DNA of 64,000 nucleotides from Chitinophaga pinensis (GCA_945861665.1 CAMAVS010000005.1:124001-188000); one strand, 5' to 3'; counted from the first letter of the stretch, positions 50,129 to 63,661 are shown. Made by a program: numbers and translations. Notes: generated from the sequence alone by a model not told the origin.

Positions 50129-50158
50129 TTTGAAATAAAGACAATAGTGTTACTTTTG
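50129..50158 (+). promoter_or_regulatory. Promoter of the lipoprotein-VTC-DUF4956 gene set
   Basis: TTTG (50129-50132) and TACTTTTG (50151-50158) are separated by 18 bases, an exact -33/-7 pair, 52 bases before the first ATG. Confidence 0.75.
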
Positions 50159-50209: not shown

Positions 50210-50959
50210 ATGAAAATGCAATTTAAATATATCGTTGCACTTGGAGTAATTACTGTTGGCTTTAATGCTTGTAAAAAAGGTGAGGGTGAAGGTGGCGGAG
50301 CAATTATAAAAGGAGTATTAACTGCAAGTAATGTGCACTCTGTTAGTTCTGGCTCTGAGCCTGAAGCAAACACCACTATTTTTATCAGCTACGGTGCCGA
50401 TAGAATGATAGCTGACAAATCTGTTAAAACTGGCACAGATGGTTCATTTGAGATTCCCTATTTACGAAAAGGCACCTATAAAATATTTGCTTATTCATTG
50501 GATCCTGCACTTGCAAACCCCTCTACCAATGTTGCGAACAATCCTATTTTAACACCTGTAGAAAAAACAATAGAAGTAACTGATAAGACTGGCTCATATG
50601 ATGTTACCGATTTTGTAATCAACAAAGACGCTGACGATGGAGGCTCTGCATCTATTAAAGGAAGAGTTTTTGCACATTACCACGACAGCAAATTTCAGGT
50701 AGTAACAGGTTCTGATTACCATGCGGATGAGGATGTATACATTAATTTCGGTGAAAATGTCAACTACGGCACAAAAGTAGAGACTTCTCCTGACGGTTCA
50801 TTTATATTTAATTATATGCGAAAAGGTAAATACTCAGTATATGTTTATTCAAGAGATACTTTGCCAAATCCCGACCATAAAACAGCTGTGAAAATGACAT
50901 TCGAGATTACCGATAAAGCTCAGGTGAAAGATTTAGGGACATTTATCATAAGGAAATAA
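50210..50959 (+). CDS. Lipoprotein with two tandem beta-sandwich repeats
   Basis: A lipobox GFNAC at residues 18-22 predicts lipidation and membrane anchoring, followed by a Gly/Glu linker. Two homologous repeats follow (about 30-140 and 145-249). Each has IKG near the start, a (T/S)xDGSF turn, then YLRKGTYKIFAYS or YMRKGKYSVYVYS, a pattern like carboxypeptidase-regulatory/Cna-B prealbumin-like folds. No catalytic site is seen. It heads a set of five close or overlapping genes. Confidence 0.75.
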   Translation: MKMQFKYIVALGVITVGFNACKKGEGEGGGAIIKGVLTASNVHSVSSGSEPEANTTIFISYGADRMIADKSVKTGTDGSFEIPYLRKGTYKIFAYSLDPALANPSTNVANNPILTPVEKTIEVTDKTGSYDVTDFVINKDADDGGSASIKGRVFAHYHDSKFQVVTGSDYHADEDVYINFGENVNYGTKVETSPDGSFIFNYMRKGKYSVYVYSRDTLPNPDHKTAVKMTFEITDKAQVKDLGTFIIRK

Positions 50960-50960
50960 T

Positions 50961-51539
50961 ATGAGAATTAGGCTTTTATTATCAAGCATCACACTTTTAT
51001 GTTTCTTTTCGTTTTATTCTGTTGCTCAAAGCAAAAAGAATATCAAAAAAAATAAAGTAAAATCAACTTCTGTTACTACTACTGAAGATATTAAAGGTGC
51101 TCAGCAAACATTCAAAGATACTTATGAAGAGTATGATTCAGAGGGCAATACCATAGTAGATATTGAATACAATCCGGATGGTACATTCAAAAAAAAGGAA
51201 ACATATAAGTTCAATAAGAATGGAGATGTTTTAGAACACGTAGTGTACGGAACTAAAGGAGAAATTAAAAAATCTACCACGATGAAATATAGCGCATTGT
51301 TTGATAAGATTGAAGAATTACGCTATGAAGGAGTAGCTAATAAATTAGTTGAGAGGGAGGCATATACCTACAATGCTCAAGGGCAAAGAACCTCTGAGGT
51401 AACCTTGGACGGGAATGGTGTATTGATTAAAAAAGCAATTTATACTTACGATAAAAAAGGATTGAAACTGGAAAAGAAAACCGTAGACGGGAAGGATAAA
51501 TTATTATCGGATAAAAAATATAACTACGGGTATAAATAA
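50961..51539 (+). CDS. Exported protein with YD/RHS-like repeats
   Basis: A signal peptide ending SVAQ is followed by a Lys-rich stretch. From about residue 50 there are five or six short units with aromatic and Gly/Asp turns (EYDSEGNT, YNPDGTFKKK, FNKNGDVLE, YNAQGQRTSE, YDKKGLKLEK), similar to YD or antitoxin-like beta repeats. Function unknown. It starts one base after the lipoprotein stop and ends directly before the VTC gene. Confidence 0.65.
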   Translation: MRIRLLLSSITLLCFFSFYSVAQSKKNIKKNKVKSTSVTTTEDIKGAQQTFKDTYEEYDSEGNTIVDIEYNPDGTFKKKETYKFNKNGDVLEHVVYGTKGEIKKSTTMKYSALFDKIEELRYEGVANKLVEREAYTYNAQGQRTSEVTLDGNGVLIKKAIYTYDKKGLKLEKKTVDGKDKLLSDKKYNYGYK

Positions 51540-52310
51540 ATGGTAGATACAATAAGAAACATTATTTCAGATTTCAGGCCAATCACTTTAACAGAGATGG
51601 ATGGTGTTAAACTGTTAGACAGAACAGATACAAAATTTATTTTTCCTATTAGCAAATTACCGAGTGTGCTGAATTTTGTTGCAGAACATTATAGGGTGTT
51701 AGAAGTTGAAAATAGTAGGATAACGGATTACGAAACATTATATTTTGACACACCTGATTGGCAGCTTTACACAAAGCATCATAATCAAATATTAAACAGG
51801 TATAAAATTAGAACAAGAAAATACGTGAACTCCAATTTGCATTTTTTTGAAATAAAATATAAAAATAATAAAGGGCGTACTATCAAGAGTAGGGTTAAAC
51901 AAAAATCAATTGAAAACCAAATAACTGATATAGCTAAAATGTTGCTGGAGGAAAACACAAGTCTTCTTTCAAGTCAATTAGTTCCTGCTTTATGGGTTAA
52001 CTACTCACGCATTACTTTTGTGAACAACAACCTGGAAGAAAGGGTTACAATCGACTTAAACCTTACTTTTAAGAAAGAGAATAAAGAGAAAAAATACGAA
52101 ACACTTGTTATTGCAGAATTAAAACAAGACAAAGCTCGTTCACGCTCCCTATTTTTGAAGGCCATGAACCAGTACCGTATCAAACGAAATTCAATCAGCA
52201 AATATTGCTTAGGAGTAACCCAATTGATTTCTGAAGTAAAAAAGAATAATTTTAAACCGAAAATTTTAACCCTTAATAAAATATTATATGCTTTACCACA
52301 TTCTGCTTGA
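51540..52310 (+). CDS. VTC-domain polyphosphate-polymerase-like protein
   Basis: The 256-residue protein has the VTC/CYTH tunnel fold. LLDRTDTKFIFP at the start, RYKIRTRKY, FFEIKYKNNKGRTIKSR, ERVTIDLNL and VIAELKQDK supply the basic and acidic residues lining the tunnel. Eukaryotic Vtc4 uses this domain to polymerise ATP phosphate into polyphosphate. Bacterial homologues beside DUF4956 are uncharacterised as far as I know, so polyphosphate synthesis or triphosphate binding is inferred. No membrane helix. Confidence 0.85.
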   Translation: MVDTIRNIISDFRPITLTEMDGVKLLDRTDTKFIFPISKLPSVLNFVAEHYRVLEVENSRITDYETLYFDTPDWQLYTKHHNQILNRYKIRTRKYVNSNLHFFEIKYKNNKGRTIKSRVKQKSIENQITDIAKMLLEENTSLLSSQLVPALWVNYSRITFVNNNLEERVTIDLNLTFKKENKEKKYETLVIAELKQDKARSRSLFLKAMNQYRIKRNSISKYCLGVTQLISEVKKNNFKPKILTLNKILYALPHSA

Positions 52311-52932
52311 TGCAGCAAACGAGGCTTTAGATCCAGCAGTAACATCCATGTTTTTTGACAAATTGAATGAAAAATTCTTTGTGCGTTTATTAATTGACTT
52401 AGTGGCTGTTTTCTGCCTCATTCGTTTAATATACTACCCACTTTACAAAAATAAAGAATTCTTTTTTACCTTTTTTATGTTCAATATCATCATCTACTTA
52501 CTTACGTATGTGTTGAACAAAGTGGATATGTCGACTGGAGCGGCTTTTGGTTTGTTTGCTGTTTTTTCACTGCTTCGCTATAGAACGGAAGATATTACTC
52601 CAAAAGATATGACCTATCTTTTTACTGTGATCGCAATGGGACTTATTGGTTCAGTAATGAAAGGCACCTATTTTGAGATGGCCTTGGTTGAATGCATTAT
52701 AATTGGTGCTGTATATGCATTGGATAGCAATTTGTTCCTTAGAAAGGAAATTATTAAAAATATACAATACGAAAATATTGATATGATTAAACCTGAACAT
52801 CACGCTGACTTACTGGAAGATTTAAAAAAAAGAACAGGCTTGAGTATTCATAAAATCACAATAGGAAAGGTTGACTTTTTGCGCGACACTGCGATTATTA
52901 AAATATACTATTATGAGGACCTTCAAAAATAA
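52288..52932 (+). CDS. DUF4956 membrane protein
   Basis: About four membrane helices in the first 150 residues, with the conserved cytosolic loop FGLFAVFSLLRYRTEDITPK between helices, mark DUF4956. The C-terminal 60 residues form a small soluble domain. The ATG at 52288 lies 23 bases inside the VTC gene; a second start at 52351 is possible. VTC-DUF4956 adjacency is common in bacteria and argues for a joint function, perhaps a membrane channel or anchor for a VTC product. Confidence 0.87.
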   Translation: MLYHILLDAANEALDPAVTSMFFDKLNEKFFVRLLIDLVAVFCLIRLIYYPLYKNKEFFFTFFMFNIIIYLLTYVLNKVDMSTGAAFGLFAVFSLLRYRTEDITPKDMTYLFTVIAMGLIGSVMKGTYFEMALVECIIIGAVYALDSNLFLRKEIIKNIQYENIDMIKPEHHADLLEDLKKRTGLSIHKITIGKVDFLRDTAIIKIYYYEDLQK

Positions 52933-53641
52933 AATAGCTTTATATGCAGCTTTAACATTTTGCTTTTTATCCTTTTCTAACATTTTTTTGTATGCTCAAG
53001 TAGATGATGATAATGGTAGAGTTAATAAGGATGCGATGTTATGGTCAACTATAAGTTTAGAGAAAAAGATAACCCAACGTTTATCCATTAACATTGATGA
53101 AGAATTAAGGCTTCTTAATAACTTTAATCAGATAAATTTAAATTATATGAATTTTGGTAGCTATTTTGCTATCGATAAGCACTTTAAGGTAGGAGTTGTA
53201 TATCGCTGGATTGAAAAAAATAATTTTGATGGCAGCTATAGTCACAGAAATCGTTTCTACGTAGATGCAACTTATAAAACAAAAATTAAATCTGTAACAT
53301 TTGCCTATAGAACTCGTCTTCAAACACAAGTAAGGGATTACTATTCCAGTTTTGATGGTCGTATTCCCGAAAGCTATTGGAGAAATAAATTTGATTTAAA
53401 ATTCGATATCAATAAGCCAATTACACCCTATATTGGTGCCGAATTCAGGTATCAGTTTCCGAATATGCGTTTAAAGGAAGCAAATAACGAATTTAACAGA
53501 GGAAGGTATTATGCAGGATTTAATTATAAAATAAGCGACAAATACAGTTGCGGTGCGTACTATTTATATCAAAGAGAATTTAATATAAATAATCCCGAAA
53601 GAGACCACGTTTACGGGCTTGAGTTCGGAATTACATTATAG
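52913..53641 (+). CDS. DUF2490 outer-membrane barrel
   Basis: A signal peptide (MRTFKNKIALYAALTF... ending LYAQ) precedes a repetitive amphipathic strand pattern typical of DUF2490 barrels: LWSTISLEKKITQRLSINID, FKVGVVYRWIEKN, GLEFGITL at the end. The frame runs upstream to 52871, but the ATG at 52913 gives the natural signal sequence and 242 residues, overlapping the DUF4956 end by 20 bases. Probable role in the outer membrane of the same system. Confidence 0.82.
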   Translation: MRTFKNKIALYAALTFCFLSFSNIFLYAQVDDDNGRVNKDAMLWSTISLEKKITQRLSINIDEELRLLNNFNQINLNYMNFGSYFAIDKHFKVGVVYRWIEKNNFDGSYSHRNRFYVDATYKTKIKSVTFAYRTRLQTQVRDYYSSFDGRIPESYWRNKFDLKFDINKPITPYIGAEFRYQFPNMRLKEANNEFNRGRYYAGFNYKISDKYSCGAYYLYQREFNINNPERDHVYGLEFGITL

Positions 53642-61621: not shown

Positions 61622-63661
61622 CTACTCCTTCACCACCTTATTCGTATACACCTTTTTATCGGTCTTCACAACAATGGAATAAATACCTGAGCTTAGTTGT
61701 TGAAAATCGGAAATACGCTCGTTATAATCGCCACCAATTTTATTTCCGCAATCAATGCTTTTTATTACTCTGCCTAAAACATCTACCAATTGTATTTGAA
61801 CAGTAGTTTCTTCGTTGAGAAAATAATTTACATCCAGGTAGTTGTTAAACGGATTTGGAAATACTTGTACCAAAGCACCTAAAGCTGCTTCATCTTCAAC
61901 ACTTAGGTTGTAGCATTTGCCTGGCATATTTGCATCCAACCAACCTATGCGGTCAACCAACCATTTTTGCAAATCATTCATCGCTCCTTTAAAAGTGGCA
62001 TCGTATATTCTTGGACTACCTACCACACCTAATCCCAATAAATTCCATCGTTGAAAATGCCTTGCCTGTGCCTCACTTAAATAACCTTCCATTGAATCGA
62101 GGTAGTTCTGCAAATAAGTCATTTCAAGTGTTTTGGTACGCAACCAAGTCCATCTGCATTTTACATTGTTATGAAAAACAGTATCGGTCATTAGTCTGTT
62201 AAACCAACGTACTTTTTGATCGCAGGAGTATGTTTCAAATTCCCACTTGGAAATAGTTTGCGATTCGCAACCTGTGTAATTACCGTAACCGTAATTTATA
62301 TCCCAATGAGGACCTGCTTTAATTTTACCTCCATCGGTAATTTTTTCTTTGTTGAAATAAGTACTTGCTCGGTAGCCATCGGGGTTTTTACTCACCTCTT
62401 GCAAAAACATGTAATCAATAAAAGAAGTAACGTTGATGTATTTTTTATATCCTACAATAGGGTCGGTATAATTAACTCCAAACAGTGCAGTCTCAAAACT
62501 ATCTACGAAGGATTTCAAATATGCCCCTTGCTGCAAAGTCGGATATTTAGGATAATGGTATTGAATAAAAATATTATTATAAGCCGACCACCAACCGTTG
62601 TTTCCATTACCTGCCCACCAGTCTACTTTAAAAATATAACCACCTGTTAAACTATCACCGGCATTGTCATCGCTATCCATTTTTTTTACACTAACCCGAT
62701 TATCATCACGCTTAATTTTTTCCATCAAAGCATACACACCTCGGTACTCGCCATTTATTACCAATTCACAAAATTGCGAACGCGAGGAAAAATTTCCCAT
62801 TTCTCTGCTTAGCTTATAAGTAAGCACATTGCGCATCATACTCATATCGTTATAAGGTGCGTATAAAATCCACTCGTGCTCTTTGGGCATTCCCAACAAA
62901 GAAGCATCCCAAACAGAATCTTGCGCATCAAGGGTTTCAAAACCATAGGATTGTTGAGGGTAGGTTTGCGAATAATTTCCGTGTAACTCAATCGCAATTT
63001 TATTGTTATAGCCCTCAAAAGTGTCTTTTAGGAAATTTCGTTGCCCTGCACCTTTATTAATAATACCCATCTGCGCTATTATTTTTGGCTCATCTACAAT
63101 GTTTTGTAAATTGGTATTGATGGATATGATTGGCAAATTAGACGATTTAAAATTAACCCATTTTGCTGGCTGATTACTAAAAGTGATGCTAAAATCAATT
63201 ACATTTCCAACATCATTGAGGTTATTGTCCATCACGTATAAAATCCAGTTTCCATTAGGATTTTGCAAGTTATTCAACAAACTTAAATAGCTCGTTGGCG
63301 CAAATGTTCCTGTAAATGGAGCAGATGCAGCATTGATTGAATTTACAACATTGTTACTAAAGGTAGTATTGGTATAATTATCATTGGCGCCTCCTAAATA
63401 ATTAGCCAAGGGTATGTAATTTCCATCGGGAGCCCCTAAGTAAATACTTAAATCGCCATCGTAGGTATGAGCAATATTTATGGTAACTTTTTCAATACCA
63501 AAATTGGTATCAATTACAGCAGGTAAGCCACTCACATTACAATTGAACGCATCGTGGGACCAATTCCCATCTGTTATGGGTCCACCAACACCGTTAAATG
63601 TTTGTGCCGAAACGGAAAAGAAAGTAGCTAATGTGATGAATGCGCTGTATAGGTATTTCAT
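61622..63661 (-). CDS. T9SS-exported CotH-kinase family protein with P domain
   Basis: The signal peptide (ending SVSAQ) is followed by a proprotein-convertase P domain (about 25-165: KVTINIAHTYDGDLSIYLGA, NPNGNWILYVMDN). A CotH kinase-like domain (about 190-560) has YAPYNDMSMMRNVLTYKLS, VINGEYRGVYALMEKIKRD and the metal-binding-type AGPHWDINYGYGN. A T9SS type A sorting domain closes it (VFPNPFNNYLDVNYF to KVVKE). CotH proteins are atypical kinases that phosphorylate spore-coat or other exported proteins. CotH, VTC and DUF4956 genes are often neighbours, and a VTC-DUF4956 pair lies about 8 kb away. Confidence 0.87.
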   Translation of the reverse strand: MKYLYSAFITLATFFSVSAQTFNGVGGPITDGNWSHDAFNCNVSGLPAVIDTNFGIEKVTINIAHTYDGDLSIYLGAPDGNYIPLANYLGGANDNYTNTTFSNNVVNSINAASAPFTGTFAPTSYLSLLNNLQNPNGNWILYVMDNNLNDVGNVIDFSITFSNQPAKWVNFKSSNLPIISINTNLQNIVDEPKIIAQMGIINKGAGQRNFLKDTFEGYNNKIAIELHGNYSQTYPQQSYGFETLDAQDSVWDASLLGMPKEHEWILYAPYNDMSMMRNVLTYKLSREMGNFSSRSQFCELVINGEYRGVYALMEKIKRDDNRVSVKKMDSDDNAGDSLTGGYIFKVDWWAGNGNNGWWSAYNNIFIQYHYPKYPTLQQGAYLKSFVDSFETALFGVNYTDPIVGYKKYINVTSFIDYMFLQEVSKNPDGYRASTYFNKEKITDGGKIKAGPHWDINYGYGNYTGCESQTISKWEFETYSCDQKVRWFNRLMTDTVFHNNVKCRWTWLRTKTLEMTYLQNYLDSMEGYLSEAQARHFQRWNLLGLGVVGSPRIYDATFKGAMNDLQKWLVDRIGWLDANMPGKCYNLSVEDEAALGALVQVFPNPFNNYLDVNYFLNEETTVQIQLVDVLGRVIKSIDCGNKIGGDYNERISDFQQLSSGIYSIVVKTDKKVYTNKVVKE

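Follow-up and report, generated by a model that had tools for sequence, protein, structure and literature searches.

Operon structure and conservation

Five co-directional genes at positions 50210 to 53641 of a 64,000-nucleotide stretch of Chitinophaga pinensis DNA (GCA_945861665.1 CAMAVS010000005.1:124001-188000; hereafter the window, G000:C5:124001-188000 in our numbering) were confirmed as a genuine, widely conserved Bacteroidota operon. We tentatively read it, with somewhat less than even confidence, as an envelope phosphate-export module in which polyphosphate would be synthesised in the cytosol, exported via a DUF4956 membrane protein, and serve secreted CotH kinases. The window is set in a 2.49 Mb Bacteroidia genome, and the five genes, all on the plus strand, encode a lipoprotein (LIP; 50210..50959), a secreted YD-like repeat protein (YD; 50961..51539), a VTC-family triphosphate-tunnel protein that is a predicted polyphosphate polymerase (51540..52310), the DUF4956 protein (52288..52932), and a predicted DUF2490 outer-membrane beta-barrel (52913..53641). 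The gap between LIP and YD is 1 base (50959/50961) and that between YD and VTC 0 bases (51539/51540), the VTC and DUF4956 open reading frames overlap by 23 bases (52288-52310), and DUF2490, with its ATG at 52913, overlaps DUF4956 by 20 bases (52913-52932), in agreement with the spacing of 0-1 base or overlaps of about 20 bases given in the original prediction, which had been made from the sequence of the window. An alternative TTG start of DUF2490 at 52871 would lengthen its overlap with DUF4956 to 62 bases.

The original prediction had also proposed the five genes as a conserved set spanning the envelope, and this was borne out by a census of loci and by genome-wide counts. Open reading frames were called in 80 regions of further genomes within the class and in 80 named loci and were searched with profiles of the proteins of the window, and 101 loci that had enough flank and carried VTC and DUF4956 in a single same-strand run were counted; these numbers are of loci picked for VTC or DUF4956 matches rather than of independent events, and some genomes are possibly in both sets. 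DUF2490 was a partner in 75 of the runs, LIP in 52, YD in 49 and CotH in 49, and the commonest gene order, CotH-LIP-YD-VTC-DUF4956-DUF2490, was found at 20 of the 101 loci. Among 295 Bacteroidia genomes, about half had VTC and DUF4956, the latter being present in 142 of the 144 with VTC. LIP was found in 124 genomes of this sample, 116 of which also had VTC, and 91 of 131 LIP places were within 6 kb of DUF4956, as were 40 of 48 strong YD matches in the genomes searched (below about 95 bits the YD profile also picks up other repeat proteins). The LIP, YD and DUF2490 genes are therefore kept with VTC-DUF4956 across Bacteroidota, and chance clustering of the five genes was rejected by both the locus census and the genome-wide tests. 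The envelope genes can also separate from VTC-DUF4956 as a sub-module, because at least 8 of 20 distant LIP places that were fetched show LIP beside or near DUF2490, some with YD or CotH.

Two further kinds of locus were seen. At L136 and L142 (family f15), a DUF4956 gene without VTC adjoins a gene for a calcineurin-like phosphoesterase whose N-terminus weakly matches purple acid phosphatases. Records titled Methanoperedens and Alphaproteobacteria (L179, L201) hold copies of Bacteroidota type, at 59% and 54% identity, and are probably misbinned contigs.

Association with secreted CotH kinases

All five genes of the original prediction are present, but it missed the usual sixth, a secreted CotH kinase, which is the commonest upstream partner of the operon and the strongest clue to its function. 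CotH kinases with type IX secretion system (T9SS) tails were found upstream of the gene set in many families. In the locus census, CotH was counted with a profile of the kinase domain alone, since T9SS tails spoil a profile that includes them. Genome-wide, CotH was present in 139 of the 144 VTC genomes versus 31 of the 151 without VTC. The association persists within families (22 informative families, Cochran-Mantel-Haenszel p=6e-13), and a second, phylum-wide sample, which shares some genomes with the first, had CotH in 23/23 VTC genomes versus 24/95 others. The dependence runs in one direction: VTC is hardly ever found without CotH, but CotH does not need VTC. Two Asp residues, likely of the CotH catalytic site, are 99-100% conserved in 69 domains.

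The window genome (2.5 Mb) encodes 12 CotH genes, versus 0 to 6 in seven same-family relatives. One of the 12, with a P-domain and a T9SS sorting tail, lies outside the operon on the minus strand (61622..63661) and is the proposed customer; in the same-family relative G007 (L079), CotH is two genes upstream of LIP.

Other proteins were also seen around the place that CotH usually occupies. At L077, L078, L091 and L115, a T9SS-tailed protein of ~550 residues with no clear domain lies at or near that position, and G006, one genome with such a protein, has VTC but no CotH. At L080 (G078, a genome with VTC and no CotH), VTC-DUF4956-DUF2490 is followed by a Cthe_2159 carbohydrate-binding protein. 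An arylsulfotransferase-like protein is found upstream of CotH at L083, L103, L108 and L132, often with a CBM-like protein, both being T9SS-tailed where scanned.

A predicted polyphosphate polymerase

The VTC protein matches Pfam PF09359 with 102.3 bits (cut-off 23). A single-sequence search of it against PDB gave nothing useful, while a profile of 34 VTC proteins aligned with the solved yeast Vtc4. Read from the alignment to 8i6v_E numbering, Vtc4 residues K200, R264, R266, K281, K294, R361 and R373 equal K32, R91, R93, K106, K116, R157 and R168 in the window protein, and by motif order (E-x-K, S-K) Vtc4 E426, K428, S457 and K458 equal E193, K195, S220 and K221. Each of the Vtc4 tunnel and catalytic residues checked is kept in 96-100% of about 150 VTC relatives, and none of the basic ones examined has been lost. 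The AlphaFold model has a predicted local distance difference test score (pLDDT) of 94.4, and in a Foldseek search its top 13 PDB matches were all yeast Vtc subunits, ahead of every hydrolase. With the Pfam match, the model and the ranking of the yeast structures in agreement, the polyphosphate-polymerase fold first assigned to this gene was upheld. Because of the tunnel residues, these Vtc-first matches, and R28 and K195 (discussed below), sequence and model together indicate that polymerase activity is likely.

DUF4956 and the envelope proteins

The DUF4956 protein scores 175.7 bits against PF16316 (cut-off 30.6), and its model (pLDDT 86.8) shows a membrane part of five helices (residues 28-53, 57-78, 83-99, 105-123 and 128-146) followed by a C-terminal ACT-like alpha/beta domain. 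It had first been described as a four-helix membrane protein, of which the membrane location stands and the count is approximate; the published view is an ACT domain plus four helices (PMC12345266). No useful match was found in PDB with a single sequence or with a profile, and the C-terminal part gave weak Foldseek matches to ACT/ferredoxin-like domains. An extended amino end was seen in 22 relatives, 21 of which start like a secretion signal; since these long relatives carry a signal-peptide-like start, the amino end is predicted to be outside, and an outside amino end with five helices would put the C-terminal domain inside. After the signal-like start, the extensions are rich in Lys (17%), in Asp and Glu (22% together) and in Ser (9%) but hold less than 1% Arg, and Lys clusters directly precede the first transmembrane helix (TM1). 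PASK-type lysine tracts bind polyphosphate in yeast, and the Lys-rich tract of these extensions presumably resembles them. In the membrane part, R33 is nearly invariant and R97 and R99 are invariant; translocation by yeast VTC requires basic residues in the first membrane helices (PMC9911596).

The lipoprotein, a CarboxypepD_reg-like protein with a Pfam fn3_3 match over cut-off, has two tandem TTR/CarboxypepD_reg-like domains, versus a single one in most relatives, and its lipobox Cys21 (C21) is invariant in 32/32 aligned sequences. The second gene had been called a secreted repeat protein with YD repeats: it passes NCBIfam YD_repeat_2x (23 bits, cut-off 15.8) but misses Pfam RHS_repeat (16.2 bits, cut-off 22), so that the label "YD-like" is fair and nothing beyond that. 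The DUF2490 gene scores 88 bits against PF10677.

VTC-DUF4956 is preceded by a 355-residue HlyD/AcrA-like periplasmic adaptor, akin to the EmrA, MacA and AcrA adaptors of export pumps, in g2, a genus of the family to which the window belongs, and also outside Bacteroidia. The adaptor was never found together with LIP, YD or DUF2490 in any of 13 clear cases (L074-L076, L081, L082, L276, L277, L279-L283, L289); a 14th candidate, L209, is a weak match (32 bits). VTC-DUF4956 thus has two different envelope-spanning partners, which favours an export function. A layered route for polyphosphate or another phosphorylated product had been proposed at the outset, and the adaptor variant makes such a route more plausible; the identity of the product as polyphosphate and its passage through the outer membrane are steps that we infer.

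Proposed function and alternatives

In the export module that we tentatively propose, VTC would polymerise phosphate from ATP in the cytosol at the membrane, like yeast Vtc4, and DUF4956, beside it in the inner membrane, would pass the polymer, or else some related phosphate compound rich in energy, into the periplasm, as the basic TM1 pore does in the yeast VTC complex. Further out, in the periplasm and outer membrane, the products of the YD, LIP and DUF2490 genes would act, and the usual customer would be a secreted CotH kinase, working at a site without ATP. It is not obvious what could donate phosphate to a kinase once it has been secreted, and export by VTC-DUF4956 would, if true, answer this. 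This would amount to a polyphosphate-driven extracellular phosphorylation system in Bacteroidota, and the coupling of polyphosphate synthesis to translocation that yeast shows would then also occur in bacteria. The most specific form of the idea, in which polyphosphate made at the inner membrane is exported via DUF4956 and the envelope proteins and is itself the phosphoryl donor for secreted CotH kinases, is distinctly doubtful. Cultured Runella, Emticicia, Flectobacillus and Larkinella carry the locus, which makes the proposal amenable to gene deletion.

Several observations weigh against an export module serving CotH. Some VTC genomes are without a recognisable CotH (G006, G078, G241, G278, G285 and the control Bacteroides ihuae), no CotH adjoins the window operon, the nearest being that at 61622-63661, 8 kb away, and the use of polyphosphate by CotH is something that we infer. 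Template-modelling scores of the VTC model to Vtc4 are moderate (about 0.6 in Foldseek), and a Foldseek search with the membrane part of DUF4956 found no solved relative, leaving the channel role without support from a solved protein. Family f28 retains LIP-YD-DUF4956-DUF2490 without VTC (L138, L139, L147), and no VTC was found elsewhere in the genomes concerned (G034, G075, G109); altogether 19 of the 295 Bacteroidia genomes have DUF4956 without VTC. In Streptococcus intermedius, deletions of DUF4956 and of CotH each more than halved aggregation in artificial sputum medium, a result in favour of the module, but deletion of VTC had no reported aggregation defect (PMC12345266). Together with f28, this last result indicates that VTC is dispensable in places.

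Such a pattern would also be produced by a DUF4956-CotH core to which VTC is an optional supplier, with DUF4956 moving another phosphate donor or sensing phosphate via its ACT-like domain. The loss of VTC from an otherwise retained gene set and the silent streptococcal VTC deletion, set beside the effects of the other two, are as this explanation predicts, and CotH is present in 13 of the 19 genomes with DUF4956 only. We nevertheless consider it rather unlikely, as VTC occurs without DUF4956 in only 2 of 144 genomes and the VTC tunnel residues are under full constraint.

Another explanation is exopolysaccharide maturation, in which CotH, VTC and DUF4956 would act on a surface glycan, or on the machinery that exports it, by phosphorylation or tuning, without polyphosphate itself being exported. 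In Streptococcus, Clostridium and Bifidobacterium these three genes are fixed neighbours of Pel clusters (PMC7112168), the deletions alter Pel levels (PMC12345266), and in a second Bacteroidia layout DUF4956-VTC-CotH is clustered with an O-antigen-ligase-family gene (L092, L100). Most Bacteroidia copies examined, including that of the window, are however without recognised adjacent polysaccharide synthesis genes, although not every neighbour was scanned; by inspection, with no pel profile search made, the operon flanks (47-57 kb) hold genes that resemble sufB, hemE and a Glu/Leu-type dehydrogenase, among others. We regard this explanation as unlikely to a similar degree.

The VTC protein might instead be a tripolyphosphatase or have some other tunnel-enzyme activity, given that the tunnel fold is common to hydrolases. 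In tripolyphosphatases, four Glu residues build a second metal site that is missing from Vtc4 (PMC4641920). One position of this patch, E4 in AtTTM3, stays acidic in a way that suits a hydrolase, being D30 in the window and Asp or Glu in 150/150 relatives, where Vtc4 has Thr. The full acidic patch of the AtTTM3/ygiF type was not found, however, as E2 is replaced by R28 and the hydrolase acid E171 by K195, a Lys as in Vtc4 (E90 is unmapped). With the catalytic Ser-Lys (S457/K458) retained and solved Vtc structures ranking first, an activity other than polymerisation is improbable. A plain intracellular phosphate store or regulator, with envelope genes that merely share its promoter, would accord with the frequent use of polyphosphate as a store and with the conditional standing of export, but is highly improbable given that LIP, YD and DUF2490 accompany VTC-DUF4956 across many families, that LIP and DUF2490, sometimes beside CotH, also build separate clusters, and that the adaptor variant points outward.

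Promoter and immediate surroundings

A same-strand hemE-like gene lies upstream of the operon, and in the 115-base gap between them a pattern match identified a candidate promoter on the plus strand (50129..50158; TTTG-N18-TACTTTTG, the Bacteroidota-type consensus). This had been put forward as one good promoter for all five genes. The match in the gap stands, but the pattern is at chance frequency in the window (4 seen versus 5.2 expected from shuffles), so that only its location favours it. On the other side, the end of a convergent dehydrogenase-like gene lies 29 bases downstream of the operon.

Comparison with known systems

The adaptor variant recalls HlyD/MFP-type exporters (EmrA, MacA, AcrA), in that such an adaptor takes the place of the three envelope genes in some relatives; unlike those exporters, the VTC-DUF4956 pair has no recognised matching ABC, RND or MFS pump, and the window operon itself has no adaptor. 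In Bacteroides thetaiotaomicron, BT3498-BT3499 is an annotated DUF4956-DUF2490 pair corresponding to the last two genes of the operon, but it is an entry in an expression table only, and its function was not studied there (PMC10434189). The yeast VTC complex (Vtc4/Vtc3/Vtc1; PMC9911596) likewise has a tunnel polymerase, with equal residues, beside a membrane protein with basic residues. It differs in that the window operon has no SPX sensor domain, DUF4956 matches the Vtc membrane domain neither in sequence nor in fold, and transport, which is a property of the yeast complex, is here a proposal.

The closest precedent is the CotH/polyphosphate polymerase/DUF4956 neighbourhood known beside Gram-positive Pel clusters (PMC7112168, PMC12345266). 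The original prediction was right that the VTC-DUF4956 pairing is known from genomes, but in saying that a worked-out bacterial function was not known it overlooked the published Streptococcus genetics (PMC12345266). Our literature search found no description of a LIP-YD-VTC-DUF4956-DUF2490 operon or of the one-sided dependence of VTC on CotH, and the Bacteroidota envelope version of the VTC-DUF4956-CotH trio appears to be new. The Pel-cluster genes SIR_1594, SIR_1593 and SIR_1592 bring together the same three families, but they lie beside pel genes in Gram-positive hosts that have no outer membrane, and they are without LIP, YD and DUF2490, whereas the window set is a stand-alone envelope operon in which VTC and DUF4956 are adjacent and CotH is not.

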